Positions 26,532 through 59,756 of a DNA stretch of 64,000 nucleotides are shown here, piece after piece (position 1 is the stretch's first letter; each line of letters opens with the position of its first letter). This DNA comes from Bacteroidales bacterium. GTDB taxonomy: Bacteria > Bacteroidota > Bacteroidia > Bacteroidales > UBA932. Under the pieces are notes generated by a model, which made no database searches, was not told the origin of the DNA, and saw only the letters and a program-made list of their open reading frames with translations. Made by a program: the position numbers and the translations under genes. Where the stretch lies: assembly GCA_017619675.1 (NCBI GenBank), contig JAFZRX010000003.1:1-64000 (forward strand), given 5' to 3'.

Positions 26532-29342
26532 CTATTCTGCGTATTCAGTTGCGAAATAATTACCCTTGCGTGCGTACGGGATGCCGCTTTCCATCCATAC
26601 GGGCAATGGAGCGCCCTGCAGATAGTAGTCGAAGAACTGCTGCAGACGGATGGAGAGGTCCTTGCTGTTGCGCCTCTCGGAAAGGTTGTGCTGCTCGTTG
26701 TTGTACTCCAGCAGCCATGCCGGCTTGCCAAGGCGCCTCAGGCTCATGAAGAACTCTATTCCCTGATACCATGGAACGGCGCCGTCAGCATCGTTGTGCA
26801 TGATGAGGACAGGGGTGTTCACGAACGGGGCGTGGAATACGGGGGAGTTCTCCAGATAGAGATCAACCCCTTCCCACAGCGTGGTGCCCACGCGGCTCTG
26901 CCCGTGTTCATACTGGCCGATGCGGCTCATTCCGGATTCCCAGCGTATTCCGCCGTACGCGCTGGTCATGTTGCCAACAGGGGCGCCCGCGCCCGCTGCG
27001 GCGAACATGTTTGTGCGCGTAACCAGGTACGCTGTCTGGTATCCGCCCCAGCTCTGGCCCTGGATGGCCATCTTGCTCTTGTCTATGAAACTGAACTGGC
27101 GGCACATTGACTCCGCGCCTGAACATACGCAGTTGAAGGCGCTTTCGCCCGGGTGGCCGTCTACATACACGATGTCCGGAATGAATACTACATAGCCGCG
27201 GCTTACAAAGAAGGAAATGTTGACCGTTGAACGGCTGGGGGCCGGCTGGCGGTAGTTGAACAGTGTTTCGGAGTTCTTCTCGTAGAAGTATATCATCATA
27301 GGATACTTGCGTCCCGGCTCCATGTTGTCAGGCGTGAATAGCAGGCCGTCCAGCGGGGTGCCGTCGTAGGCGTTCCAGTGCACCAGCTGGGCCTCGCCCC
27401 AGCGGTACTGGGCCTGCTGTGGATTGATGGCCGTAAGCTTGGTGTCCGTCTTGAAGTTGTCCTTGGTTATGTACAGATCCATGGGGTTGCGGAAATCGCC
27501 CTTAAGGTATGCGATCACGTCAGCGTTATCCGCCTTGGTTACGCTGGAGAAGGATTTCTCCGCCAGGAAGCCCTGGGGTTCGCCTCCCTTGACAATGTCA
27601 ACCGTGGCATATCCATTCTGCTTGGTCTGGGTGTCGAAAGAGGAAAGGCGGATGTTTCCTTTGGTAGGCTGGGTCTTTATGAACTGGTACAGGTAAGGGT
27701 TGGAACGGCCGTCAAGGTTCACCACGCGGTACTGAACCTTGTCCCGGCGGCCTGCGCCGCGGGTAAGGTTCACCGCCTGTGAACCGTCAGGGGAGAACTT
27801 CCACACATCGTACTTGTCAGTGAGGAGCAGGGCCTCGTCCGTGCCCACCCAGGAAGGGGTGCCTATTGGAGTGTAGCCTGTGGTGGGGTGGTCATCGTCC
27901 TCGTCCCAGAAGATGATACCGATGTTTCCGGTGAGGTTCACCAGCGCTCCGCTGGCCAGGTTGAGGCAGTACCAGTTGCCGTCCTCCGGGTTGAAGTGGG
28001 CCAGATATTTCCCGTATGGCGACGGAATTCCGTAGCCTTCCGATTCCTTGCTGAGGAGTTTGCGGCTGCCGTCGCGCAGGTCTACCAGCGAGACATCCGC
28101 GCGGCTGTCCGACGCCCACATGTTGTCTATCGTATATTTGTCAGTGTCCATTGAAAGGGCGTAGTCCGCGTCGGCTCCGTTGAAGAACGAAATCCTGTCC
28201 GAAGGGTTGGCGGAAACCACTACCAGTTTGCCCGGCTGATCCAGGTTCACAACGGCCGTGCGTGTGCGCGGGCGGGCCAGTTTGTCCATTGGCGGCACGC
28301 TGTTCTGGTCCCATACCCAGATGTCCAGCTGGGCGGCCTCGAACTCATATACGGTGGTGTCCTTTGGAGGGAAATACTCCGAAAGGTTGAGTACCAGGCG
28401 GCCGGCGCCGTTGGAGAAAGCCGGGCGCGCGGGTGCGCTCACAACCCAGCCCTCCGGGAGGTCAGGGCTGTTCGCGGACAGCACCTGGGAGGTCTGCCAC
28501 TGCGTTACGGCAGGCGCGCGTCGCGTAGCTTTGACAAGCACCTGCTCCTGCGCCAGGTAAACCGCATGGCGCGGGGTGCCGTCGTTCTTCTCTTCCTGGT
28601 CAGTGGCGGTGAAGACCACCTTGTCGCCGCCGTCATTGAAGCGCACGTTTGCATAGGATTTCTTATCGGCGTCAAGGGTGTCGATCTTCCCGGAGGGGAA
28701 GTCATACAGGATTACGGCGCTGCGGGAGAGCGAGTCCGCGTCTTCCTTATCGGCCGCCACAATCAGGCGTCTGCCTGATTTGTCCGCCTCAAAGGCAGAG
28801 ACGTTCATTATGGAATCAACCGCTCCCGTAGCGGTGTCAATTACCAGGAGTTTCCTTGACTTGCGTCCCTTCACGTCCTGAGCCGCAAAGATGTACGGCG
28901 CTGCGTCAAGCCCCATTGCGGTGCTTCCAGACGTGCCTATCATCTCCCATTTAAGGGTGCGCAGGTCCAGTTTTGCCAGGCTGTCCTTGGGCTGGTCATC
29001 ACGGCCTTTCTTGTCTATCTTGGCCTGGCGGGTGGAGTCGAAGGGAGCCTTCACCGTGAATACGGCCCAGCTGGCGTCCCCGGTCCATTTAAGGCCCGTA
29101 CCGCGTTCCACGGCCAGTTCCGCACCGGATTTGAGGTTCTTTATATAAAGGGTTCCGTCGCCTTCCTGGGGCACTATCTCGTAACTGACCATACCGCCGT
29201 CAGGCGTAATTTTGACGGCGCTGACGGACTGCCATCTGTCATATACGCTATGGTCCAGGGGCTTGTTCTGTGCCTTCAGGGAAGTGGTTGCACAGCAAAG
29301 GGAGAAGGCTGCGCAGAGGTAAAATAATGCACGTCTTTTCAT
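26532..29342 (-). CDS. Exported S9-family (prolyl oligopeptidase-like) serine peptidase
   Basis: A 936-residue protein with a signal peptide (CATTSLKAQ). An N-terminal beta-propeller of about 600 residues precedes an alpha/beta-hydrolase domain. The triad is visible as Ser in IQGQSWGGYQ, Asp in IMHNDADGAVPW and His in NEQHNLSE. S9 enzymes of this type release dipeptides or small peptides. It is the first gene of a two-gene operon with the M28 peptidase. The upstream region is shared with the divergent VOC gene (72 nt), so expression of the two directions may be connected. Confidence 0.92.
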   Translation of the reverse strand: MKRRALFYLCAAFSLCCATTSLKAQNKPLDHSVYDRWQSVSAVKITPDGGMVSYEIVPQEGDGTLYIKNLKSGAELAVERGTGLKWTGDASWAVFTVKAPFDSTRQAKIDKKGRDDQPKDSLAKLDLRTLKWEMIGTSGSTAMGLDAAPYIFAAQDVKGRKSRKLLVIDTATGAVDSIMNVSAFEADKSGRRLIVAADKEDADSLSRSAVILYDFPSGKIDTLDADKKSYANVRFNDGGDKVVFTATDQEEKNDGTPRHAVYLAQEQVLVKATRRAPAVTQWQTSQVLSANSPDLPEGWVVSAPARPAFSNGAGRLVLNLSEYFPPKDTTVYEFEAAQLDIWVWDQNSVPPMDKLARPRTRTAVVNLDQPGKLVVVSANPSDRISFFNGADADYALSMDTDKYTIDNMWASDSRADVSLVDLRDGSRKLLSKESEGYGIPSPYGKYLAHFNPEDGNWYCLNLASGALVNLTGNIGIIFWDEDDDHPTTGYTPIGTPSWVGTDEALLLTDKYDVWKFSPDGSQAVNLTRGAGRRDKVQYRVVNLDGRSNPYLYQFIKTQPTKGNIRLSSFDTQTKQNGYATVDIVKGGEPQGFLAEKSFSSVTKADNADVIAYLKGDFRNPMDLYITKDNFKTDTKLTAINPQQAQYRWGEAQLVHWNAYDGTPLDGLLFTPDNMEPGRKYPMMIYFYEKNSETLFNYRQPAPSRSTVNISFFVSRGYVVFIPDIVYVDGHPGESAFNCVCSGAESMCRQFSFIDKSKMAIQGQSWGGYQTAYLVTRTNMFAAAGAGAPVGNMTSAYGGIRWESGMSRIGQYEHGQSRVGTTLWEGVDLYLENSPVFHAPFVNTPVLIMHNDADGAVPWYQGIEFFMSLRRLGKPAWLLEYNNEQHNLSERRNSKDLSIRLQQFFDYYLQGAPLPVWMESGIPYARKGNYFATEYAE

Positions 29343-29357
29343 AAACTATCCAGTTAA

Positions 29358-29392
29358 TTTGTCGCAAGATACAAAAATCATTGCTATCTTTG
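29358..29392 (+). promoter_or_regulatory. Probable promoter of the seven-gene VOC/CFAT operon
   Basis: TATCTTTG at 29385-29392 is a good -7 element. TTTG at 29358-29361 is a possible -33 at 23-nt spacing (longer than the common 19-21). The operon's first ATG is 22 nt downstream. An inverted repeat GCTATC-TTT-GATAGC (29383-29397) overlaps the -7 box and could be an operator. Confidence 0.55.
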
Positions 29393-29414: not shown

Positions 29415-30491
29415 ATGGCAGAATTCTCTATAACAGGCATCCAGCAGGTTGGCGTGGGAACAGTCAATTTCCGCAAATCCTGGAACTGGTTCATTGAGAT
29501 GTTCGGAATGGACATCAAGATTCTGGAAGACGACACCGTGGCTGAAAGGATGCTGCCGTACACTGGCGGCCAGCCCCAGAAACGGCACGCCTGCATAGCA
29601 GTAAACCTCCAGGGCGGAGGCGGCCTTGAAATTTGGCAGTATTCCCAAAGGAAGCCCGTAAGCGCGGATTTCACCGTCTCGGTGGGCGACCTGGGCGTCT
29701 TTGCCGCAAAGATAAAAAGCCGTGACGTTGAGGCTTTCCACAGTATTATCAGAGAAAAGTGGGAAGGCGTGGGAGACATTTCCACCCTGCCGGACGGCAC
29801 TCCATGCTTCTACGTCAAGGACCTTTACGACAACTGCTTCCAGGTTGTGGAAGACCAGGAAGTATATATAGAGCAGAACCGCATGAACGGCGGCATAGGC
29901 GGTGCCGTAGTGGGCGTCACGGACATGGACGCCTCCATCCTTTTCTACAAGGATGTCCTGGGCTACGACACCCTCATTTATGATTCCGAAGGAGTCTTTG
30001 ACGACTGGAACATAATGCCGGGCTGCACGGAGCGCTACAGGCGCGTGTGCCTGGCCGCTTCCGGCCAGGGCAAGGGCGCCTTTGGCGCGCTCATGGGCAG
30101 GAACACCATCGAACTGGTGCAGGCGCTGGACCACGCTCCCCGCAAGATATTCGAGGGGCGGCAGTGGGGAGACCCCGGCTTCATCCAGATATGTTTTGAC
30201 ATATCCGGGATGAAAGCCCTGGGCGGGCACTGCGCCGCCTTGGGACACCCCTTCACGGTGGACAGCTGCCCCGCGGGGGAGCAGTTCGACATGGGGGACG
30301 CATCGGGCCACTTCACTTACATTGAGGATCCTGACGGAACCCTCATTGAGTTCGTGGAAACGCACAAGATTCCGGTAGTGAAGAAACTCGGCTGGTTCAT
30401 AGACCTCAAGAAGCGTGATCCGCTCAAGCCCCTTCCCAAGTTCCTTTTCCGCCTCATGGGCTTAGTGTCAAGAGAAAAAGTAAAACAATAA
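29415..30491 (+). CDS. Two-repeat VOC (glyoxalase-fold) protein lacking the usual His ligands
   Basis: A 358-residue cytosolic protein made of two vicinal-oxygen-chelate halves (residues 1-145 and 155-320) plus a basic C-terminal tail. The strand-end Glu residues remain (LEIWQY, TIELVQA, GTLIEFVE). The positions where VOC enzymes normally carry metal-binding His read QQVGVGT, GAVVGVTD and GFIQICFD. It may therefore bind metal differently or act as a non-catalytic partner. It is the first gene of a tight operon (3-nt gap) with cysteate fatty acyltransferase-like, cysteate synthase-like and SDR genes, so a role in sulfonolipid metabolism is inferred. No known pathway step requires it, so its job is open. 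Confidence 0.8.
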   Translation: MAEFSITGIQQVGVGTVNFRKSWNWFIEMFGMDIKILEDDTVAERMLPYTGGQPQKRHACIAVNLQGGGGLEIWQYSQRKPVSADFTVSVGDLGVFAAKIKSRDVEAFHSIIREKWEGVGDISTLPDGTPCFYVKDLYDNCFQVVEDQEVYIEQNRMNGGIGGAVVGVTDMDASILFYKDVLGYDTLIYDSEGVFDDWNIMPGCTERYRRVCLAASGQGKGAFGALMGRNTIELVQALDHAPRKIFEGRQWGDPGFIQICFDISGMKALGGHCAALGHPFTVDSCPAGEQFDMGDASGHFTYIEDPDGTLIEFVETHKIPVVKKLGWFIDLKKRDPLKPLPKFLFRLMGLVSREKVKQ

Positions 30492-30494
30492 TAT

Positions 30495-31760
30495 ATGCAA
30501 AAAGACATTTTCGAGAAAATAATGGCGTCCACCGGCGGCCCCATCGGCCAGTACCGGGAGAAGGCCGAAGGTTATTTCGCCTTCCCAAAACTGGAAGGAG
30601 AACTTGGTCCTCACATGAGGTTTAACGGCCAGGACGTGCTGTGCTGGAGCCTGAACAATTACCTGGGATTGGCAAACCATCCGGAGGTGCGCAGGGTTGA
30701 CGCCGAGGGCGCCGCCCGCTGGGGCATGGCCTACCCTATGGGCAGCCGCATGCTCACCGGGCACACCGCCCTGCACGAGAAGTTCGAGCGCATGCTCGCT
30801 GAGTTCGAGTGCAAGGAGGCCGCCTTCCTGTACAACTTCGGCTATCAGGGAATCGTATCCACCATTGACGCGCTGGTAGGCCGTCACGACGTCATCGTCT
30901 ACGATGCGGAGTGCCACGCCTGCCTGCTGGACGGAATCCGCCTCCACATTGGAGAGAAGTACAAATTCCGCCACAACAACATAGTTGACTGCGAGAAGGT
31001 CCTGGCCCGCGCCTGCAAGGTTGCGGACGAGAACGGCGGCGGCGTGCTGGTTATCACGGAGGGCGTGTTCGGAATGACCGGAGCCCTGGGAATCCTGGAC
31101 CAGATAGTGGCGCTCAAGGAGAAATACAGCTTCCGCTTCATGATTGACGATGCGCACGGCTTTGGAGTGATGGGCCCCCACGGAAGGGGAACGTCCGAGC
31201 ACTTCGGCGTGATGGACGGCGTTGACCTGTACATTGGCGCGTACGCCAAGTCCATGGCCACCATCGGAGGATTCGTGGCGTCCAAGAAGGAGATAATCAC
31301 CTACCTGCGCTACAACATGCGCTCCCAGATGTACGCCAAGGCCCTGCCTATGCCGATAGTTGAAGGCTGCATCAAGCGCCTGGAGATAATCAACAGCCCG
31401 GAAGGCGACGAGCGGCGCGCGCAACTCTGGAAAGTTACGCGCCGCCTGCAGGAAGGCTTCCGCGAGCTTGGCTACGAGATTGGCCCAGCAGAGGCCTGCG
31501 TGACCCCCGTGCACCTTGCCTGCGGCATCAACCAGGCTTCCAACATCGCGGTTGACCTCAGGGAGAGATACCATATCTTCTGCTCTATCGTGACCTATCC
31601 TGTCATTCCTCCTGGAATGCTCATCTTCAGGATCATCCCTACGGCCGCGCACAGCATGGAAGACGTAGAGTACACGCTGGACGCCTTCCGCGACATCAAG
31701 GAGCGCCTGGCCCGCGGAGAATACGACAAGGAAATCCCAGACATGGCAATCGTTAAGTAG
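30495..31760 (+). CDS. Alpha-oxoamine synthase, probable cysteate C-fatty acyltransferase (3-dehydrocapnine-forming)
   Basis: A 421-residue PLP enzyme of the AOS family (SPT, KBL, BioF). Visible features are NNYLGLANHP, YDAECHA with the cofactor-stacking H141, MIDDAHGFG (D219/H221) and the Schiff-base Lys in GAYAKSMATIGGF (K252). AOS enzymes condense an amino acid with an acyl thioester and release CO2. A cysteate synthase-like gene follows at 2 nt and an SDR after that. The inferred reaction is L-cysteate plus a long-chain acyl thioester giving 3-dehydrocapnine, the first committed sulfonolipid step in Bacteroidetes. It differs clearly from the classical SPT at 57767 (EGVFGMTG here, DGVYSMEG there). 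Glycine C-acetyltransferase is the main alternative name. Confidence 0.78.
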   Translation: MQKDIFEKIMASTGGPIGQYREKAEGYFAFPKLEGELGPHMRFNGQDVLCWSLNNYLGLANHPEVRRVDAEGAARWGMAYPMGSRMLTGHTALHEKFERMLAEFECKEAAFLYNFGYQGIVSTIDALVGRHDVIVYDAECHACLLDGIRLHIGEKYKFRHNNIVDCEKVLARACKVADENGGGVLVITEGVFGMTGALGILDQIVALKEKYSFRFMIDDAHGFGVMGPHGRGTSEHFGVMDGVDLYIGAYAKSMATIGGFVASKKEIITYLRYNMRSQMYAKALPMPIVEGCIKRLEIINSPEGDERRAQLWKVTRRLQEGFRELGYEIGPAEACVTPVHLACGINQASNIAVDLRERYHIFCSIVTYPVIPPGMLIFRIIPTAAHSMEDVEYTLDAFRDIKERLARGEYDKEIPDMAIVK

Positions 31761-31762
31761 AT

Positions 31763-33046
31763 ATGAGATTCGAACCTACAACCTACAGCCTGCTGAACGT
31801 GGCCACTGGACGCCAGTTTGAAGATTCCGGATGGACCATGGCAGACCCCCAAAGTCCCGAACCGTCCCTGGTAAGGGCCGTGTACGAACACAAGGAATTC
31901 TCCGTCCGCAAAGACCTTGACGGAATATACCGGTACGCCAACTGGATGCCCATCAAGCGCACCCTGAAGCACTCCTGCGCGCCCGTGACCTACAGGTCAA
32001 AGGGCCTTGCAAAGTATCTCGGGTTGGAGAACCTATATATAACATTCTCCGGATGGAACCCCAGGTTGGGCGCAAAGATGAAAACCTGCTCCTTCAAGGA
32101 GACCGAGGCCTACAGCGTGCTTGCCCGCATGGACAAGAAGGAGAAGCGCGTGCTTGTGGTGCAGTCCGCGGGCAACACCGCGAGGGCCTTCGCCCAGGTG
32201 TGCTCGGACAACGGCATCCCCGTGGTGATCTGCGTCCCCCTGGACAGCTGCCACGACCTGTGGTTCCGCAGGCCGCTTGACAAGTGTGTCAAGCTGGTGG
32301 CGGTACCACACGGCTGCGACTATTACGACGCCATCGCCCTTGGAGAGAAACTGGCCACGGATCCAGGGTTCTTCCTGGAGGGAGGAGCCAAGAACGTGGC
32401 AAGGCGCGACGGTATGGGCACCACTGTCCTCAGCTTTGCTGAGAAGGTGGGCCGCATCCCGGACGCGTACTTCCAGGCCGTGGGCTCCGGCACTGGAGCC
32501 ATAGCCGCCTGGGAGAACGCGCAGAGGCTGGCGGCTGACGGACGCTTCGGTGCCAACAACATGCGTGTATACGTGGCCCAGAACGCCCCGTTCTCCCTGA
32601 TGTACGATTCCTGGAAGCAGGTATCAAGGAAACTTGTGGACCTGGAGCCGGAGGTCGGACGCCATCAGGCGGAAATTATTCTTGCAAAGGTGCTTTCCAA
32701 CAGGAAACCGCCATACAGCCTTGCCGGAGGCCTTTTCGATACTCTCAAGGAGAGCGGCGGAGACGTTTACCTGGCAGACAACAACGACATTGTGTTCTGG
32801 CTGCTGCAGTTCCGTAACCTGGAGGGTTACGACCTGCTGCCCGCAGCCTGCGTGGCCGTGAGCGCCCTGGCGCAGGCTGTAAAGGAAGGCAAAGTCCGCA
32901 AAGACGAATATATAATGCTCAACTGTACCGGAGGAGGAACTCTGGGAGCTATCAGCAAGGGCTTCGTCCTGAAGAAGCCTGACCTGGTCCTGGAGCCCGA
33001 CACGGATGCAGCAGAGGTTGTAAAGAAAGTTAAAGCCTTGTTCTGA
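31763..33046 (+). CDS. Threonine synthase-like PLP enzyme, probable cysteate synthase
   Basis: A 427-residue fold-type II PLP enzyme. Features include the SFK lysine in KTCSFKETEA (K112), the substrate loop SAGNTARAF (135-143), GSGTGAIAAW and the late phosphate-binding CTGGGTLGAI. Cysteate synthases are threonine synthase relatives that make L-cysteate from O-phosphoserine and sulfite. The position directly after a probable cysteate fatty acyltransferase (2-nt gap) and before a YeiH-type sulfur-anion transporter favours this over threonine synthase. The N-terminal 100 residues also differ from normal threonine synthase. Its stop overlaps the next start by one base (TGATG), a sign of translational coupling. 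Confidence 0.8.
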   Translation: MRFEPTTYSLLNVATGRQFEDSGWTMADPQSPEPSLVRAVYEHKEFSVRKDLDGIYRYANWMPIKRTLKHSCAPVTYRSKGLAKYLGLENLYITFSGWNPRLGAKMKTCSFKETEAYSVLARMDKKEKRVLVVQSAGNTARAFAQVCSDNGIPVVICVPLDSCHDLWFRRPLDKCVKLVAVPHGCDYYDAIALGEKLATDPGFFLEGGAKNVARRDGMGTTVLSFAEKVGRIPDAYFQAVGSGTGAIAAWENAQRLAADGRFGANNMRVYVAQNAPFSLMYDSWKQVSRKLVDLEPEVGRHQAEIILAKVLSNRKPPYSLAGGLFDTLKESGGDVYLADNNDIVFWLLQFRNLEGYDLLPAACVAVSALAQAVKEGKVRKDEYIMLNCTGGGTLGAISKGFVLKKPDLVLEPDTDAAEVVKKVKALF

Positions 33047-33828
33047 TGAGAGTGTGGATCACGGGTGCTTCTTCCGGAATCGGGGAAGCGTGCGCGTATC
33101 TCTACGCAAAGCGTGGAGACAGCGTGGTTGTGACTTCCAACGAGAAGGAGAAACTGGAGGCCGTTGCCTCCAAGTGCCTGGAGTTGGGAGCCGGCGGCGC
33201 CGTGGCGCTGCCGTTCGACCTGCTGGATTCCGAAGGAATCGCAGGTCTCGTACGGCAAGCCTGGGACGCCTTCGGCGGCCTTGACCTGATGTACTGCAAC
33301 GCCGGAATCAGCCAGCGCACCACCGTGGAGGACACCTCAATGGAGATGATCCGCCGCATAATGGAAGTCAACTTCTTTGCTCCGGTGGCTATGGCAAAGG
33401 CCATACTGCCGCTGATGCTCGAGGCGGGCGGCGGGCACATTGCCGCCACCACCTCAATCGCGGGGCGCTTCGGATTCCCTCTGCGCTGCGCGTACAGCTC
33501 GTCCAAGCACGCCCTTTACGGTTTCTTCGAAACCCTGCGGGCGGAGTACGCCTCGCGCGGCATCAAGGTTACCCTGGTATGCCCCGGCAGGGTTCGGACC
33601 AACATATCGTTCTATGCGCTGGATAAAGGCGGCAAGCAGCACGGGAAGATGGATCCCGGGCAGGCGGGCGGCCTTAGTCCGGAGGCTGCCGCGCGAAAAA
33701 TCGCGCGCGCCTTCGACCGTGGCCGCCGCGAAGTGCTCGTAGGCCGCAAGGAACTCATAATGGTTTACATCAAGCGCTTCTTCCCGGGCCTCTGCGCCAA
33801 GATATCGTCAAAAATCAAATCTATGTAG
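33046..33828 (+). CDS. Short-chain dehydrogenase/reductase, probable 3-dehydrocapnine reductase
   Basis: A 260-residue classical SDR with TGASSGIG (6-13), CNAG (84-87), Ser137 and the catalytic YSSSK (Y150, K154). The C-terminal tail is basic and hydrophobic (YIKRFFPGLCAKISSKIKSM), which may bring it to the membrane. By analogy with 3-ketosphinganine reductase, it would reduce the keto product of the AOS enzyme encoded two genes upstream to capnine (inference from operon position). Its ATG overlaps the preceding TGA by one base. A second AOS/SDR pairing occurs at 57767-59756. Confidence 0.8.
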   Translation: MRVWITGASSGIGEACAYLYAKRGDSVVVTSNEKEKLEAVASKCLELGAGGAVALPFDLLDSEGIAGLVRQAWDAFGGLDLMYCNAGISQRTTVEDTSMEMIRRIMEVNFFAPVAMAKAILPLMLEAGGGHIAATTSIAGRFGFPLRCAYSSSKHALYGFFETLRAEYASRGIKVTLVCPGRVRTNISFYALDKGGKQHGKMDPGQAGGLSPEAAARKIARAFDRGRREVLVGRKELIMVYIKRFFPGLCAKISSKIKSM

Positions 33829-33830
33829 AT

Positions 33831-35168
33831 ATGAGCAAAACAAAATCTAAAATCTTCAGCACGGAAGACTGGCTGGCCGTATGGATTGGCTTCATTGTCA
33901 TCCTCATTGGCTGCGTGGCAGTCCTTACCGGTGCTTTCAACTTCTCCGCTCTTAATTTCAGCACATTCGGGCTGGGAGAAGCCAAGGCTGCTGACCTGCC
34001 GTCACTTGGCAGTCAGCTTGCCACAGGTGCGTTCTGGTGGAAACTCCTCCGCACCGTTGTCGTATTGGGCGTCCTTTTCACCATCGGCATAAAGCTGATG
34101 GGCGGGAACGTCAAGAAGTATATCCCTGCATTCCTGGGATTGTTCGTTCTGGCTGTAATCGTGCGTCTGATCAGCGCCGAGTACACCCTGAACCGCTACC
34201 TGGAGTGGGCTTTCTGGGCTTTGATCGTAGGCCTTCTGATTTCCAACACGGTTGGAGTTCCTGACTGGCTCAAGCCTGCAGTAAAGACAGAATTCTACAT
34301 CAAGACCGGTTTGGTCATCATGGGATTCTCAGTACTGTTCTCCAACATTGCCAAGTTCGGTCTCTACGGACTGGGAATCGCCTGGATCGTTACTCCTATT
34401 GTAATAATCTTCATGTGGTGGTTCGGAACCAAGGTCCTGAAACTGGACAACAAACCTCTGGTAATCACCATGGCGGCGGCGACTTCTGTCTGCGGTACTT
34501 CCGCAGCCATCGCCACCGGCGCCGCTTCCAACTGCAAGAAGACAGACCTTACCATGGTAGTTTCCATCTCCATCATCTTCACCGTCCTCATGATGGTATT
34601 CGAGCCTATGCTAATCCGTTGGGTCCAGATGTCTCCTATCATGGGAGGTGCCCTCATCGGAGGTACCGTTGACAGTACCGGAGCAGTTGCAGTTGCCGGT
34701 TCCGCACTTGGCGGAGAGGCAGAGAAGGCAGCCGTGCTCGTGAAGATGATCCAGAACATCCTCATTGGTTTCATCGCATTCTTCGTTGCTCTGTTCTTCG
34801 CCACCAAGGTTGACAAGACCGGAACACAGAAGGTAGGCGCAAGCGAGATTTGGACCCGCTTCCCTAAGTTCATCATCGGATTCTTCGTAGCATCCCTTGT
34901 AGCATCCTTCATCATCCAGCCTCTTGCCGGAGCAGACCAGGTAAGCGCGATCAACAAGGTGCTTGACCAGTATAAGAACTGGGCGTTCGTCCTGGCATTC
35001 GTAAGCATCGGCCTTGACACCAACTTCAAGGAGATCGTAAAGCAGATGCAGGGCGGAAAGGTTCTGTGGCTGTACATCGTGGGCCAGTTGTTCAACATTG
35101 CCCTCACTCTGTTCGCCGTATGGTTCCTTCTTTCAGGAAAGGTATTCCCTATCCCTGTTCTGAACTAA
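33831..35168 (+). CDS. YeiH/UPF0324-family membrane transporter (putative sulfur-anion exporter)
   Basis: A 445-residue polytopic membrane protein with about 10-11 hydrophobic helices. It carries the YeiH-family segments VCGTSAAIATGA and GGTVDSTGAVAVAG, and a late FVLAFVSIGLDTNFKEI. The family is annotated as putative sulfate exporters, with little biochemistry. Here it lies 2 nt after the SDR in the presumed capnine operon. Since cysteate synthase uses sulfite, movement or detoxification of sulfite/sulfate, or of a sulfonate, is a reasonable inference. An extra periplasmic-side loop occurs near the N terminus (FGLGEAKAADLPSLGSQLA), making it longer than the E. coli protein. Confidence 0.85.
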   Translation: MSKTKSKIFSTEDWLAVWIGFIVILIGCVAVLTGAFNFSALNFSTFGLGEAKAADLPSLGSQLATGAFWWKLLRTVVVLGVLFTIGIKLMGGNVKKYIPAFLGLFVLAVIVRLISAEYTLNRYLEWAFWALIVGLLISNTVGVPDWLKPAVKTEFYIKTGLVIMGFSVLFSNIAKFGLYGLGIAWIVTPIVIIFMWWFGTKVLKLDNKPLVITMAAATSVCGTSAAIATGAASNCKKTDLTMVVSISIIFTVLMMVFEPMLIRWVQMSPIMGGALIGGTVDSTGAVAVAGSALGGEAEKAAVLVKMIQNILIGFIAFFVALFFATKVDKTGTQKVGASEIWTRFPKFIIGFFVASLVASFIIQPLAGADQVSAINKVLDQYKNWAFVLAFVSIGLDTNFKEIVKQMQGGKVLWLYIVGQLFNIALTLFAVWFLLSGKVFPIPVLN

Positions 35169-35459
35169 ATGGCTAAGAAAAAGACTGTGGCAAGGGTGGC
35201 TTTTGCCGTTGTGGGCATAGCCGTCCTTGCCACGGCCATTTATATCATGGCTAATGGGATAGGTCTCCAGGACGACCTCGATTTCGGGGCCGGAGCCTAT
35301 TACTATGCCGACATCCCCAATTTCGAAAAATATGTAAACAGGGACGTATATACTGCATCCCTGCCTTTTTGGGTCTATGTTGTCCTGTTCCTGGTCTGGG
35401 GAGCCCTGATGTATCTTCTGTGGATATGGGTTGACCGCAGGGGCGGACGAAAGAAATAA
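35169..35459 (+). CDS. Small two-helix membrane protein of unknown function
   Basis: A 96-residue protein with two transmembrane helices (about 8-28, VAFAVVGIAVLATAIYIMA; about 66-88, FWVYVVLFLVWGALMYLLW). Between them is a 35-residue Tyr- and Asp-rich loop, and a basic tail (DRRGGRKK) ends the protein. The ATG directly follows the stop of the YeiH-like gene with no spacer, and the ThrE-like gene starts 3 nt after it. This points to a subunit or assembly partner of one of the two transporters. I do not recognise a family. Confidence 0.78.
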   Translation: MAKKKTVARVAFAVVGIAVLATAIYIMANGIGLQDDLDFGAGAYYYADIPNFEKYVNRDVYTASLPFWVYVVLFLVWGALMYLLWIWVDRRGGRKK

Positions 35460-35462
35460 ACT

Positions 35463-36698
35463 ATGATAAACAGCCAAGAGACTTCTGCCAGGATACTTTC
35501 GCTGGCTTCCGAAGCGGGGCACGTACTGCTGGAAAACGGTGCGGAGATTTCCCGAGTAGAGGATACCATGGAGCGCATCGCCACCTATTACGGCGAGCAG
35601 AACGAGAATTTCTTTGTCCTGAGCAACGGAATATTCACTACCGGAAAGTCCTACGCCAACGTTAAGTTTATCCCCATAAAGGGCGCCCGCCTGGACAAGG
35701 TGGTGGCCATTAACCAGTTCTCCCGCGACGTCACTGCCGGGAAGTATTCTCTGGATGAGGCTGAAGCCCGATTGGAGGAAATACGGCGGCTGCCGGAGAA
35801 GCCGCTGTGGGAGCAGATCGCGGGCGCTGCCCTTGGCAGCGGTTCGTTCTGCGCCATCTTTGGCGGCAGTCTCGCGGACTGCGCCGCCGCCCTGGTTGCC
35901 GGAACGCTCGTGTACCTCTTCGTGGCGCTTGTCAGCGCCCCTTCGTGGCCGAAAGCGCTCAGCAACATCTGCGGAGGCGCGCTTGGGACGGCGCTGTGCA
36001 TTCTTTTCAACCGCTTTGGCTTCGGACAGAATCTTGGTAACATGATAGTTGGAACGCTTATTCCGTTGATTCCCGGAGTGGCGTTCACCAACGGCCTGCG
36101 GGACATTGCCGGAGAGGATTACCTGGCCGGCATCACGCGTCTGCTGGACGCCTTGATGGTATTCCTGTGCATTGCCCTGGGAGTCTGCCTTTCATTCATC
36201 GCCCAGAGCGCAATAGAAGGCGAAATGATACATCTTTCAGGTACCATTACTGATCCGTTCACCGCCAAGATACCGGTACAGTTGCTGGCTTCATTGATAG
36301 GTACCGCCTCCTTTGCAGTCCTTTTTGGCGTTCCGCGCAAATACTATCTCCAGTGCGGCATAGTTGGTATGCTGGGCTGGCTGGCCTACCTTGTCAGCGT
36401 GCGCTATCTGCCGCTGGGCACGGCCGGCGGAACATTCATAGCGGCCACCCTGGTGGCCTTCCTGTCCCTTGCCGCCGCCCGTCGCTTCAAATGCCCCAGC
36501 ACCGTCTTCCTCATCTGCGGCATCTTTCCGCTCATCCCGGGCGCCGGCGTCTTCTGGAGTTCCTACTTCGTAGTCTCCTCCCAGATGGACGCCGCCCTCT
36601 CCTCCGGCTTCTCCGCCGTCAAGGTCACCCTTGCCATAGTCCTGGGCATCGTCCTCAGCGCCAACCTCCTGTTGAGGCACTTAAAATCAGCCCACTGA
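35463..36698 (+). CDS. ThrE/ThrP-type threonine/serine exporter family protein
   Basis: A 411-residue protein. An N-terminal soluble region of about 110 residues (LLENGAEISRVEDTMERIAT, then FFVLSNGIFTT) matches the ThrE cytoplasmic domain. Two bundles of about five helices follow, the second repeating the PLIPG motif (TLIPLIPGVAF and FPLIPGAGVFW). The family exports threonine and serine. It is the last gene of the seven-gene operon (3-nt gap). Serine or phosphoserine is a precursor of cysteate, so export of a serine-like or sulfonated amino acid is conceivable, but this is only inference. Confidence 0.88.
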   Translation: MINSQETSARILSLASEAGHVLLENGAEISRVEDTMERIATYYGEQNENFFVLSNGIFTTGKSYANVKFIPIKGARLDKVVAINQFSRDVTAGKYSLDEAEARLEEIRRLPEKPLWEQIAGAALGSGSFCAIFGGSLADCAAALVAGTLVYLFVALVSAPSWPKALSNICGGALGTALCILFNRFGFGQNLGNMIVGTLIPLIPGVAFTNGLRDIAGEDYLAGITRLLDALMVFLCIALGVCLSFIAQSAIEGEMIHLSGTITDPFTAKIPVQLLASLIGTASFAVLFGVPRKYYLQCGIVGMLGWLAYLVSVRYLPLGTAGGTFIAATLVAFLSLAAARRFKCPSTVFLICGIFPLIPGAGVFWSSYFVVSSQMDAALSSGFSAVKVTLAIVLGIVLSANLLLRHLKSAH

Positions 36699-57766: not shown

Positions 57767-58957
57767 ATGAAAAAGATTATAGATGACATCTGCGCAAAAT
57801 ATACCCGCGCCGATGAAGTCAAAGCCCTGGGCATATATCCATATTACCGCCCCATAGAGTCCGGCCAGGATCCTGTCGTCAAGATGCAGGGAAGGGACGT
57901 GCTGATGTTCGGCTCTAATTCTTACCTGGGACTCTCAGACGACCCGCGCCTCAAGGAGGCAGCCATAGCAGCCATAAAGAAATACGGTACAAGCTGTTCG
58001 GGATCACGTTTCCTGAACGGAACCCTTGACATCCACCTTGAACTGGAAGAGAAACTTGCAAAACTGGTGGGCAAGGAGGAGGCCATAACCTTCAGTACCG
58101 GAATGCAGGCCAACCTTGGCGCCATCTCCGCCCTGGCTTTCAGGGACGGATTCGTGCTCCTGGATGCCCTGGACCATGCTTCCATCATTGACGGAAGCCG
58201 CCTGGGCTTCTCCAAGGTGCTCAAGTTCCCCCACAACGACATGAAGGGACTGGAGAAGAAACTCCGCATCTGCCCCAGGAACGCTCCAAAACTTATTGTA
58301 GTTGATGGAGTTTATTCCATGGAGGGAGACATAGCTCCGCTGCCTGAGATAGTCCAGCTTTGCGAGAAGTACGACGCCTACATCATGGTGGACGACGCCC
58401 ACTCATTTGGAGTTCTGGGTGAACAGGGACGCGGAACCGCCAATTATTTCGGTCTCACTGACAAGGTGGACGTAATAATGGGAACCTTCTCCAAGTCATT
58501 CGGCTCCCTGGGAGGATTCATCGCGGCCAACCATAACATCATGAACTACCTGAAGCATAACGCCCGCGCGCTTATCTTCAGTGCCAGCATGCCGCCGGCA
58601 AACGTTGCCGCGGTAAGCAAGGCCATTGACATCATGCTCACTGAGCCCGAGCGCATAGAGAACCTGTGGGATGTAACCCATTACGCCCAGGAGCAGTTCA
58701 AGGCCCATGGATTCGATACGGGACATACCCAGTCTCCTATCATCCCGCTGTTCGTAAGGGATACTACAAAGGCTCTCCAGATTGTGAAACTGGCCCTTGA
58801 CGAGGGTGTGTTCATCACCCCGGTAATCGCTCCGGCCGTGCCTCAGGATTCCGTCCTGATCCGTTTCGCCCTCATGGCCACACATTCGCGCGAGCAGGTT
58901 GACATTGCTGTGGAGAAACTTGAGAAGGTATTCAGACAAGTAGGAGTAATAAAATAG
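57767..58957 (+). CDS. spt: Serine palmitoyltransferase
   Basis: A 396-residue AOS-family PLP enzyme. It has FGSNSYLGLSDDPRLKEA, LDHASI with stacking H137, VVDGVYSMEGDIAP, MVDDAHSFGVLG (D210, H212) and the PLP Lys in GTFSKSFGSLGGFIA (K243). These motifs match bacterial SPT of Bacteroides/Sphingobacterium type, which condenses L-serine with a long-chain acyl thioester to 3-ketosphinganine. This starts the synthesis of sphinganine, dihydroceramides and related lipids. An SDR gene follows 4 nt later. The distinct AOS paralogue at 30495 belongs to the presumed sulfonolipid pathway. Confidence 0.92.
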   Translation: MKKIIDDICAKYTRADEVKALGIYPYYRPIESGQDPVVKMQGRDVLMFGSNSYLGLSDDPRLKEAAIAAIKKYGTSCSGSRFLNGTLDIHLELEEKLAKLVGKEEAITFSTGMQANLGAISALAFRDGFVLLDALDHASIIDGSRLGFSKVLKFPHNDMKGLEKKLRICPRNAPKLIVVDGVYSMEGDIAPLPEIVQLCEKYDAYIMVDDAHSFGVLGEQGRGTANYFGLTDKVDVIMGTFSKSFGSLGGFIAANHNIMNYLKHNARALIFSASMPPANVAAVSKAIDIMLTEPERIENLWDVTHYAQEQFKAHGFDTGHTQSPIIPLFVRDTTKALQIVKLALDEGVFITPVIAPAVPQDSVLIRFALMATHSREQVDIAVEKLEKVFRQVGVIK

Positions 58958-58961
58958 AAAT

Positions 58962-59756
58962 ATGGTAATCCTGATTACCGGAATTACCTCCGGATTCGGA
59001 GAAGCGATGGCCAGGCAGCTGAACGCTGCCGGCCATGCTGTTTATGGGACGCACCGCAACGCCAAGGACTTTATTCCGGGAGTCACCTACATCAAGGCGG
59101 ACGTGCAGGACGAGGAGCAGGTCAAGGCTGCCGTTGAGCAGGTGGTATCGGCCGAAGGCCGGATCGACGTGTTCATCAACAACGCCGGAATGGGAATCGG
59201 CGGTCCGCTGGAGTTCACCTCCATCCAGGACGCGCAGCGCCAGATGGACGTGAATTTCATGGGCCTGGTGCGCTGCTGCCACTATGTGGTTCCGGTGATG
59301 CGCAAGCAGGGCGGGGGCAAGATCATCGCCTTCAGTTCCATCGGAGGCCTTATGGGCCTGCCGTTCCAGGGCATGTATTCCGCCAGCAAGTTCGCCATAG
59401 AGGGCTATTGCGAAGCGTTGAGGCTGGAGACCAAGGCTCTGGGAATCAAGGTCGTTGTCATTGAGCCGGGGGACTTCGCCACGGCCTTCACGGCGCAACG
59501 CAAGAGCGTTGCCGCCCCCGAGGCCTACGAAGTCTACAAGACCTACGCCGAGTCCCTCGCCAGCATCGAAAAGGACGAGACCACCGGTCTCAAGCCGGAC
59601 TACCTTGCCGCCAAGATTGTAAAGATTGTCTTAAAGAAGAACCCGCGCTACAACTACGTCATCTCCACCTTTGTACAGCGCCTCTCCGTCTTCCTGAAGA
59701 AAATCCTGCCCGCACCCCTCTTCGCCAAAATCCTCGGTAGCTACTACAAACTCTAG
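58962..59756 (+). CDS. Short-chain dehydrogenase/reductase, probably 3-ketosphinganine reductase
   Basis: A 264-residue classical SDR with TGITSGFG (6-13), NNAG (73-76), Ser125/126 and YSASK (Y139, K143). A basic, hydrophobic C-terminal tail (FVQRLSVFLKKILPAPLFAK) suggests membrane association. It lies 4 nt after the SPT gene, so reduction of 3-ketosphinganine to sphinganine is the simplest inference. Other SDR activities cannot be excluded. The AOS/SDR order is mirrored by the cassette at 30495-33828. Confidence 0.8.
   Translation: MVILITGITSGFGEAMARQLNAAGHAVYGTHRNAKDFIPGVTYIKADVQDEEQVKAAVEQVVSAEGRIDVFINNAGMGIGGPLEFTSIQDAQRQMDVNFMGLVRCCHYVVPVMRKQGGGKIIAFSSIGGLMGLPFQGMYSASKFAIEGYCEALRLETKALGIKVVVIEPGDFATAFTAQRKSVAAPEAYEVYKTYAESLASIEKDETTGLKPDYLAAKIVKIVLKKNPRYNYVISTFVQRLSVFLKKILPAPLFAKILGSYYKL

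Follow-up and report, generated by a model that had tools for sequence, protein, structure and literature searches.

Why should an operon for a sulfonolipid carry, next to its lipid-forming enzymes, a transporter, a small membrane protein, an exporter and a VOC-superfamily protein? The question is raised by seven open reading frames (ORFs) on the plus strand, spanning positions 29415-36698 of the window, i.e. the whole stretch of 64,000 nucleotides analysed here (contig JAFZRX010000003.1 of a Bacteroidales bacterium). Our answer, which could equally well prove right or wrong, is that this is a dedicated operon for capnine, whose YeiH-type transporter and its small membrane protein partner (SMP) move sulfite, more likely inward, and whose VOC protein works with a short-chain dehydrogenase/reductase (SDR). 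Sulfite is required by cysteate synthase. According to this scheme, cysteate synthase would join sulfite and phosphoserine; the acyltransferase is predicted to make 3-ketocapnine from cysteate and acyl-ACP (acyl carrier protein); the SDR would reduce 3-ketocapnine; the YeiH-type protein and its partner would carry sulfite over the inner membrane, in this lineage probably towards the inside; and the VOC protein, together with the SDR, would act on the keto-lipid or on what is made from it. We infer the lipid product, the substrate and direction of the transporter, the function of the Hdr module of related operons (see below) and the VOC reaction from sequences and gene context.

The initial annotation had assigned three of the genes to capnine synthesis, and this assignment holds. 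In phmmer comparisons with the PDB, the acyltransferase (P0002) is closest to the solved SulA (7u7h, E 8.8e-163) and to cysteate fatty acyltransferase, CFAT (28eh, E 5e-161), its best serine palmitoyltransferase match lying far behind (E 2.2e-59). Glycine C-acetyltransferase and BioF, the other identities considered for this alpha-oxoamine synthase, are ruled out by scores, SulA and CFAT being far closer, a comparison that is by phmmer score and not by phylogeny. All five catalytic residues of SulA (Lys281, Lys251, His140, Arg376 and Asn53) are present in P0002, with the two lysines at Lys282 and Lys252, and in 191/191 aligned CFAT rows. The residues are those named in PMC9304779, where Lys281 separates SulA from serine palmitoyltransferase, which has Ala there. 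One contact of the cofactor pyridoxal phosphate (PLP) varies: SulA Thr248, which touches its phosphate, corresponds to Ala at P0002 residue 249, and Ala is found in 117/191 CFAT rows.

The second PLP enzyme of the operon (P0003) passes the model of archaeal-type cysteate synthase, TIGR03844, with 427.8 bits (cut-off 324.9), and matches the PDB cysteate synthase 9k3c with E 2.1e-152. A true threonine synthase, the other identity that had been considered, is ruled out, since it scores 63.5 bits against 427.8 for cysteate synthase. The archaeal type is used by Alistipes and Odoribacter according to the review PMC10191378, which also outlines the capnine pathway. The SDR (P0004) has GASSGIG and YxxxK motifs, read in its core, and scores best with PRK06181 (209.2 against a cut-off of 215); as far as its sequence goes, it is plausibly the 3-ketocapnine reductase. 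In other loci a second threonine-synthase-like PLP enzyme, called here enzyme X, lies just behind the acyltransferase (L034:10377-11600, L148, L149, L160, L246, L249 and L252). It is 19-25% identical to cysteate synthase, both examples scored fall below the TIGR03844 cut-off, and it may represent a further type of cysteate synthase.

CFAT is present in 174/247 genomes of the order (E 1e-110), and its neighbourhood was compared in two samples: (i) a wide one of 112 loci from the family, the order and the phylum, including one (L095) fetched via its YeiH; (ii) a close one, made of the best 80 of 538 CFAT loci. The wide loci contain VOC in 12 cases and YeiH in one, with SMP and ThrE in none; within six genes of CFAT (109 loci whose centre was called, the window among them) we found SDR 38 times, cysteate synthase or a similar PLP enzyme 16 times and a CysK-like gene 11 times, the sole CysK-like gene checked (L109) passing the CapA model. 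The runs of the close loci hold SDR in 47 cases, VOC in 41, cysteate synthase in 40, HdrB in 28, YeiH and SMP in 17 each, enzyme X in 13 and ThrE in 3, and 16/17 YeiH operons also have cysteate synthase in the run. The YeiH-type gene, the small protein and VOC, expected to lie near capnine enzymes in other genomes, do recur in the loci of relatives, and the proposal that all accessory genes belong to the same process stands for these three, which recur beside the enzymes, and finds no support for ThrE (3/80). Sulfite as the link between transporter and lipid synthesis, also suggested at the outset, is likely.

The transporter reaches 167.4 bits with PF03601, whose gathering score is 24.5; a sequence search of the PDB gave no match for it, nor for the VOC protein. 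SMP has 96 residues and, by eye, two hydrophobic stretches; it has no match in Pfam or NCBIfam, and its loop, FGAGAYYYADIP, is almost unchanged across 21 rows. It stands beside YeiH in 17/17 close YeiH operons and, window included, directly after it in all 18 loci (the larger overlaps between the two genes in some loci are an artefact of taking the longest ORF). In these 18 loci YeiH comes after cysteate synthase in 13 and after SDR in 5. Moreover, pairwise identities of YeiH correlate with acyltransferase identities (r 0.91) about as closely as cysteate synthase identities do (0.90; 17 loci). In the order, CFAT is found in 13/13 genomes with a long YeiH and in 95/136 others (p 0.02, a count that treats these 149 genomes as a subset of the 247), and in 10/28 of those with a short YeiH; in the phylum it is found in 19/21 YeiH genomes, and among the same-class genomes listed nearly all have CFAT. 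Co-occurrence in genomes is weak as proof and is not used as main evidence. Locus L095 (5752-11305) contains, on one strand, CFAT, a phosphoadenosine phosphosulfate (PAPS) reductase, two small ORFs (one DUF5395), a divergent YeiH and PLP enzyme X.

Operons of relatives often contain, instead of the transporter, genes resembling heterodisulfide reductase (Hdr). Genes of this module lie near CFAT in seven loci (L033, L059, L063, L148, L149, L159 and L160), and the run of L160 reads acyltransferase, enzyme X, HdrC1, HdrB, HdrA, HdrC2, HdrE, SDR and VOC, the last Hdr subunit (593 aa) having ferredoxin and two CCG stretches. The five-gene form (C1-B-A-C2-E) was observed within sulfonolipid operons at L160:12121-17079, L212-L217, L230, L234, L238, L241 and L248. 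The 40 runs with cysteate synthase have Hdr only in 22 cases, YeiH only in 11, both in 5 and neither in 2, and both of the latter end at a contig edge (126 and 2 bases on). After removal of L210, L237 and L224, which have under 1400 bases left to the contig end, YeiH is present in 11/11 operons without Hdr and in 5/26 with it (Fisher 5e-6, with no correction for relatedness). In a CFAT tree built from the close loci and the window, recounted without L210, L237, L280 and L224 for operons with YeiH or Hdr only, 5 changes are needed for YeiH and 7 for Hdr. An earlier figure of 10 changes (6 forced) for a YeiH-only label was rejected as inflated, contig-cut loci having been labelled 'none'. The exchange recurs but amounts to few independent changes and is not statistically independent evidence. 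The transporter and the Hdr module look like interchangeable supplies of sulfite.

At the level of genomes, HdrB occurs in 71/174 with CFAT and in 6/73 without it; conversely, CFAT occurs in 71/77 with HdrB and 103/170 without. VOC is also more frequent with HdrB in all 247 genomes (35/77 vs 47/170, p 0.008); within CFAT genomes this disappears (32/71 vs 42/103, p 0.64), and Hdr as a partner of VOC rather than of sulfite was rejected. A redox role of Hdr in VOC chemistry may still be considered because VOC adjoins HdrC1 in L186-L188.

In the host genome (2.04 Mb, 17 contigs, 94.5% complete) we found no match to PF01507 (PAPS reductase), present in 14/14 controls, none to PF01077 (sulfite reductase), present in 11/14, and no HdrB at E 1e-40; incompleteness of metagenome-assembled genomes (MAGs) limits every such absence. 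CysH, called as TIGR00434 over its cut-off, was found in 0/17 genomes with YeiH operons, 1/15 with Hdr operons, 0/3 with only VOC and SDR, and 6/15 with CFAT alone or with enzyme X (two of the 15 also with SDR). Among 22 hand-picked CFAT genomes of the order, CysH is present in 4/12 with HdrB and in 9/10 without (p 0.01); the lone HdrB-free genome without CysH, G061, carries the YeiH-SMP pair, and with the window added 23/23 have at least one of CysH, HdrB and YeiH-SMP. CysH was absent in two CFAT-free genomes, too few to lean on.

The published record connects both modules with sulfite: in vitro, the resistance of Salmonella to sulfite depends mainly on YeiH (PMC12880088), and in Hyphomicrobium the sHdr complex releases sulfite and YeiH is a probable sulfite exporter (PMC12423496, PMC11582611). 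Since sHdr releases sulfite and YeiH handles it elsewhere, the accessory parts of these operons can all turn on sulfite. As to direction, import appears likelier than export because YeiH mostly replaces Hdr and CysH was not found in its hosts, and it is further favoured because no usual sulfite route was found in the host genome. Several observations weigh against this reading. The YeiH work of PMC12880088 and PMC12423496 fits export; the transporter (445 aa) scores 83.4 with the YeiH model TIGR00698, far under its cut-off of 232.6, and its substrate may differ; YeiH is near CFAT in 0/111 wide loci drawn by CFAT alone; the YeiH-SMP pair also occurs in L084-L086, where it stands apart from CFAT; a long YeiH without any CFAT match at E 1e-120 occurs in two genomes of the same class; and the sulfite-source negatives of the host rest on an incomplete genome in which sulfonate breakdown and thiosulfate were not searched. 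Finally, four independent pairs on the starred branches of the CFAT tree differ in Hdr; on average, YeiH differs in the opposite direction in 1.4 of these pairs and in the same direction in 0, with no difference in the other 2.6. Confidence is lowered because with four such pairs significance is unreachable.

A safety valve is one alternative: the YeiH-type protein would export a toxic surplus of sulfite unused by cysteate synthase, as YeiH shields Salmonella from sulfite and is the proposed exporter of an sHdr bacterium. Five operons do hold Hdr and YeiH together, and the exchange is not significant once relatedness is counted. Such a drain should accompany Hdr, yet 21/26 uncut Hdr operons are without YeiH and 11/11 Hdr-free ones have it, and in the host genome we found no source of sulfite for it to drain; we consider the valve fairly unlikely. 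The low score against the YeiH model also suits another cargo, in which the transporter and ThrE would move cysteate, phosphoserine or serine, organic acids of the pathway, in or out; the ThrE family is named for threonine/serine export, and the Paracoccus relative SuyZ is part of cysteate breakdown (PMC11582611). However, SuyZ and YeiH have been proposed to carry sulfate or sulfite, ThrE is rare in the operon (3/80), and an organic acid leaves the Hdr exchange unexplained, which makes this reading improbable. The initial suggestion of sulfonate export is unsupported: a supply of sulfite is what the Hdr exchange and the absence of sulfite-making genes suggest. That the pair is a mobile unit landed by chance beside the enzymes would agree with L084-L086 and with the 0/111 wide loci; we hold it to be very improbable, as the pair takes the same spot after cysteate synthase or SDR in 17/80 close loci and in the window, YeiH operons lie on several branches of the CFAT tree, and YeiH distances track those of the acyltransferase.

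If sulfite import into a capnine operon is accepted, a wider scheme can be drawn, which we put forward tentatively and with some doubt: anaerobic gut Bacteroidota would have three interchangeable sulfite feeds, namely assimilatory CysH, oxidation of reduced sulfur to sulfite by an Hdr-like complex, and a long YeiH importer with a new small subunit, and the window would contain the importer alone, its host depending on the sulfite of neighbours. If true, sulfite supply would gate sulfonolipid output, the lipid could also be built by bacteria that lack the usual enzymes of sulfite formation, sulfite cross-feeding would be predicted in gut and rumen, and the VOC protein and a new small membrane protein would gain a place in the pathway. 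To our knowledge, neither a PF03601 importer nor a tie of Hdr-type sulfur oxidation to lipid synthesis was known before. Sulfonolipids made by bacteria that live with humans have effects on immune responses (PMC11211663), and the portions of the sulfonolipid literature covered are silent on the sulfite source of anaerobes.

The VOC protein is a true partner of the pathway, pairing with the SDR type and co-occurring with the acyltransferase. It is found in 82/247 genomes of the order, with CFAT in 74/82 of these and in 100/165 without VOC (p 6e-7, relatedness not corrected). Among 20 VOC loci chosen away from CFAT, an SDR lies immediately before VOC in 12 and HdrC1 comes after it in 3, and in a genome of another order (L134) the genes for VOC, acyltransferase and SDR share a strand and overlap. 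A structure model (pLDDT 86.6) has a two-domain VOC fold nearest to PcpA, glyoxalase I and GLOD4, fold searches with it resolving the superfamily only; identity to PcpA, maize glyoxalase I and GLOD4, the known two-domain proteins, is 11-14%, and the window protein differs from them in having Gln at candidate ligand sites. Across 72 rows, Gln10, Gln11, Glu72, Glu233 and Glu312 are conserved in 70-72, and position 258 holds Gln in 52 and His in 20. By the His, His, Glu pattern of the Fe(II) dioxygenases PcpA and HPPD, the candidate metal-ligand sites would be Gln10/Gln11, 258 and Glu312. As Gln replaces His and the hosts are probably anaerobic, an isomerase or epimerase that depends on a metal is more probable for this protein than a dioxygenase.

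The enzymes and their pathway are already known: the trio is that of CapA/CapB/CapC (also SulA, CFAT and KCR) of Capnocytophaga, Alistipes and Chryseobacterium, from which the window differs in having one operon with VOC, a transporter pair and ThrE added. PMC11211663 reports that the validated KCR genes of A. finegoldii and C. gleum do not cluster with cfat and Cys. New are a single operon that includes the reductase, a probable sulfite transporter always accompanied by the small protein, the exchange of this transporter for the Hdr module in relatives, and a VOC protein as pathway partner. Compared with YeiH/PSE transporters such as Salmonella YeiH and Paracoccus SuyZ, the transporter shares PF03601, a family with relatives linked to sulfite, and is set apart by its score under the TIGR00698 cut-off at 445 aa, its 96-aa partner and its place beside a sulfite-consuming enzyme. 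The Hdr module of relatives, absent from the window, has an order like that of the sHdr complex (C1-B-A-C2-B2-like), and the HdrA of L160 matches 6tjr, which we take to be Hyphomicrobium sHdrA, over residues 10-336 of 347. It fails the synteny of type I sHdr, shdrC1B1AHC2B2 (PMC11582611), having C1-B-A-C2-E without sHdrH in the run (L160 and close loci). In the literature searched, which falls short of most subscription journals, no paper joined sulfonolipid and heterodisulfide reductase, and PMC11582611 was the only one with YeiH together with cysteate.

The ORF coordinates (Table 1) bear out the single-strand layout first described, with gaps of 0-3 nt or a 1-nt overlap: the spacings are, in order, 3 nt, 2 nt, a 1-nt overlap, 2 nt, 0 nt and 3 nt. 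The gene upstream is on the opposite strand (26532-29342); downstream, the next ORF (36918, plus strand) begins after a spacer of 219 nt. The identical seven-gene order is found in L206, L207 and L208 (protein identity 83-98%), and because it is kept there the run is not due to chance or misassembly. Among named relatives, the nearest are MAGs of Bacteroidales, most of them recovered from rumen and horse faeces; one from yak rumen (L206) has a 97% identical acyltransferase. A scan for promoters and terminators gave nothing convincing at the operon start; the candidate -7 box of the table is labelled from the consensus TAnnTTTG.

Table 1. Features of the capnine operon region in the window
Feature	Position	Strand	Basis
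TATCTTTG, candidate Bacteroidota -7 box	29385..29392	+	22 nt before first ATG, by eye
VOC-superfamily protein, two-domain, 358 aa, SDR partner	29415..30491	+	PF00903
Cysteate acyl-ACP transferase (SulA/CapB/CFAT; P0002)	30495..31760	+	PF00155, PDB matches 7u7h/28eh
Archaeal-type cysteate synthase (P0003)	31763..33046	+	PF00291, TIGR03844
SDR, probable 3-ketocapnine reductase (P0004)	33046..33828	+	PF00106; SDR adjoins CFAT in relatives
Long YeiH-type transporter, probable sulfite carrier	33831..35168	+	PF03601
96-aa small membrane protein (SMP), long-YeiH partner, FGAGAYYYADIP-like loop	35169..35459	+	Recurrence; no Pfam family
ThrE-like exporter, loosely attached	35463..36698	+	PF06738+PF12821

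The last gene of the operon scores as a ThrE-like protein with the Pfam ThrE domains (PF06738 227.6 bits) and falls under the equivalog cut-off of NF047720 (92.1 vs 550). Its membership in the pathway, implied by the tight packing, is not borne out: it is in the run of 3/80 close loci, those with the seven-gene order (L206-L208), and of 0/112 wider loci. Elsewhere it lies 502 nt past SMP in L282 and inverted in L229, while in G061 and G158 the ThrE homologues are on different contigs from YeiH. YeiH-SMP-ThrE as one conserved unit was rejected: in three other families, close homologues of YeiH are flanked by SMP and not by ThrE.

Within about 30 kb of the sulfonolipid genes, at 57767-59756 of the window (plus strand), serine palmitoyltransferase-like and KdsR-like genes are adjacent, both scoring under their NCBIfam cut-offs (630.5 bits vs 640 and 308.8 vs 400, respectively). 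With these two genes in the same window, a role of the operon's SDR in sphingolipid synthesis need not be assumed.

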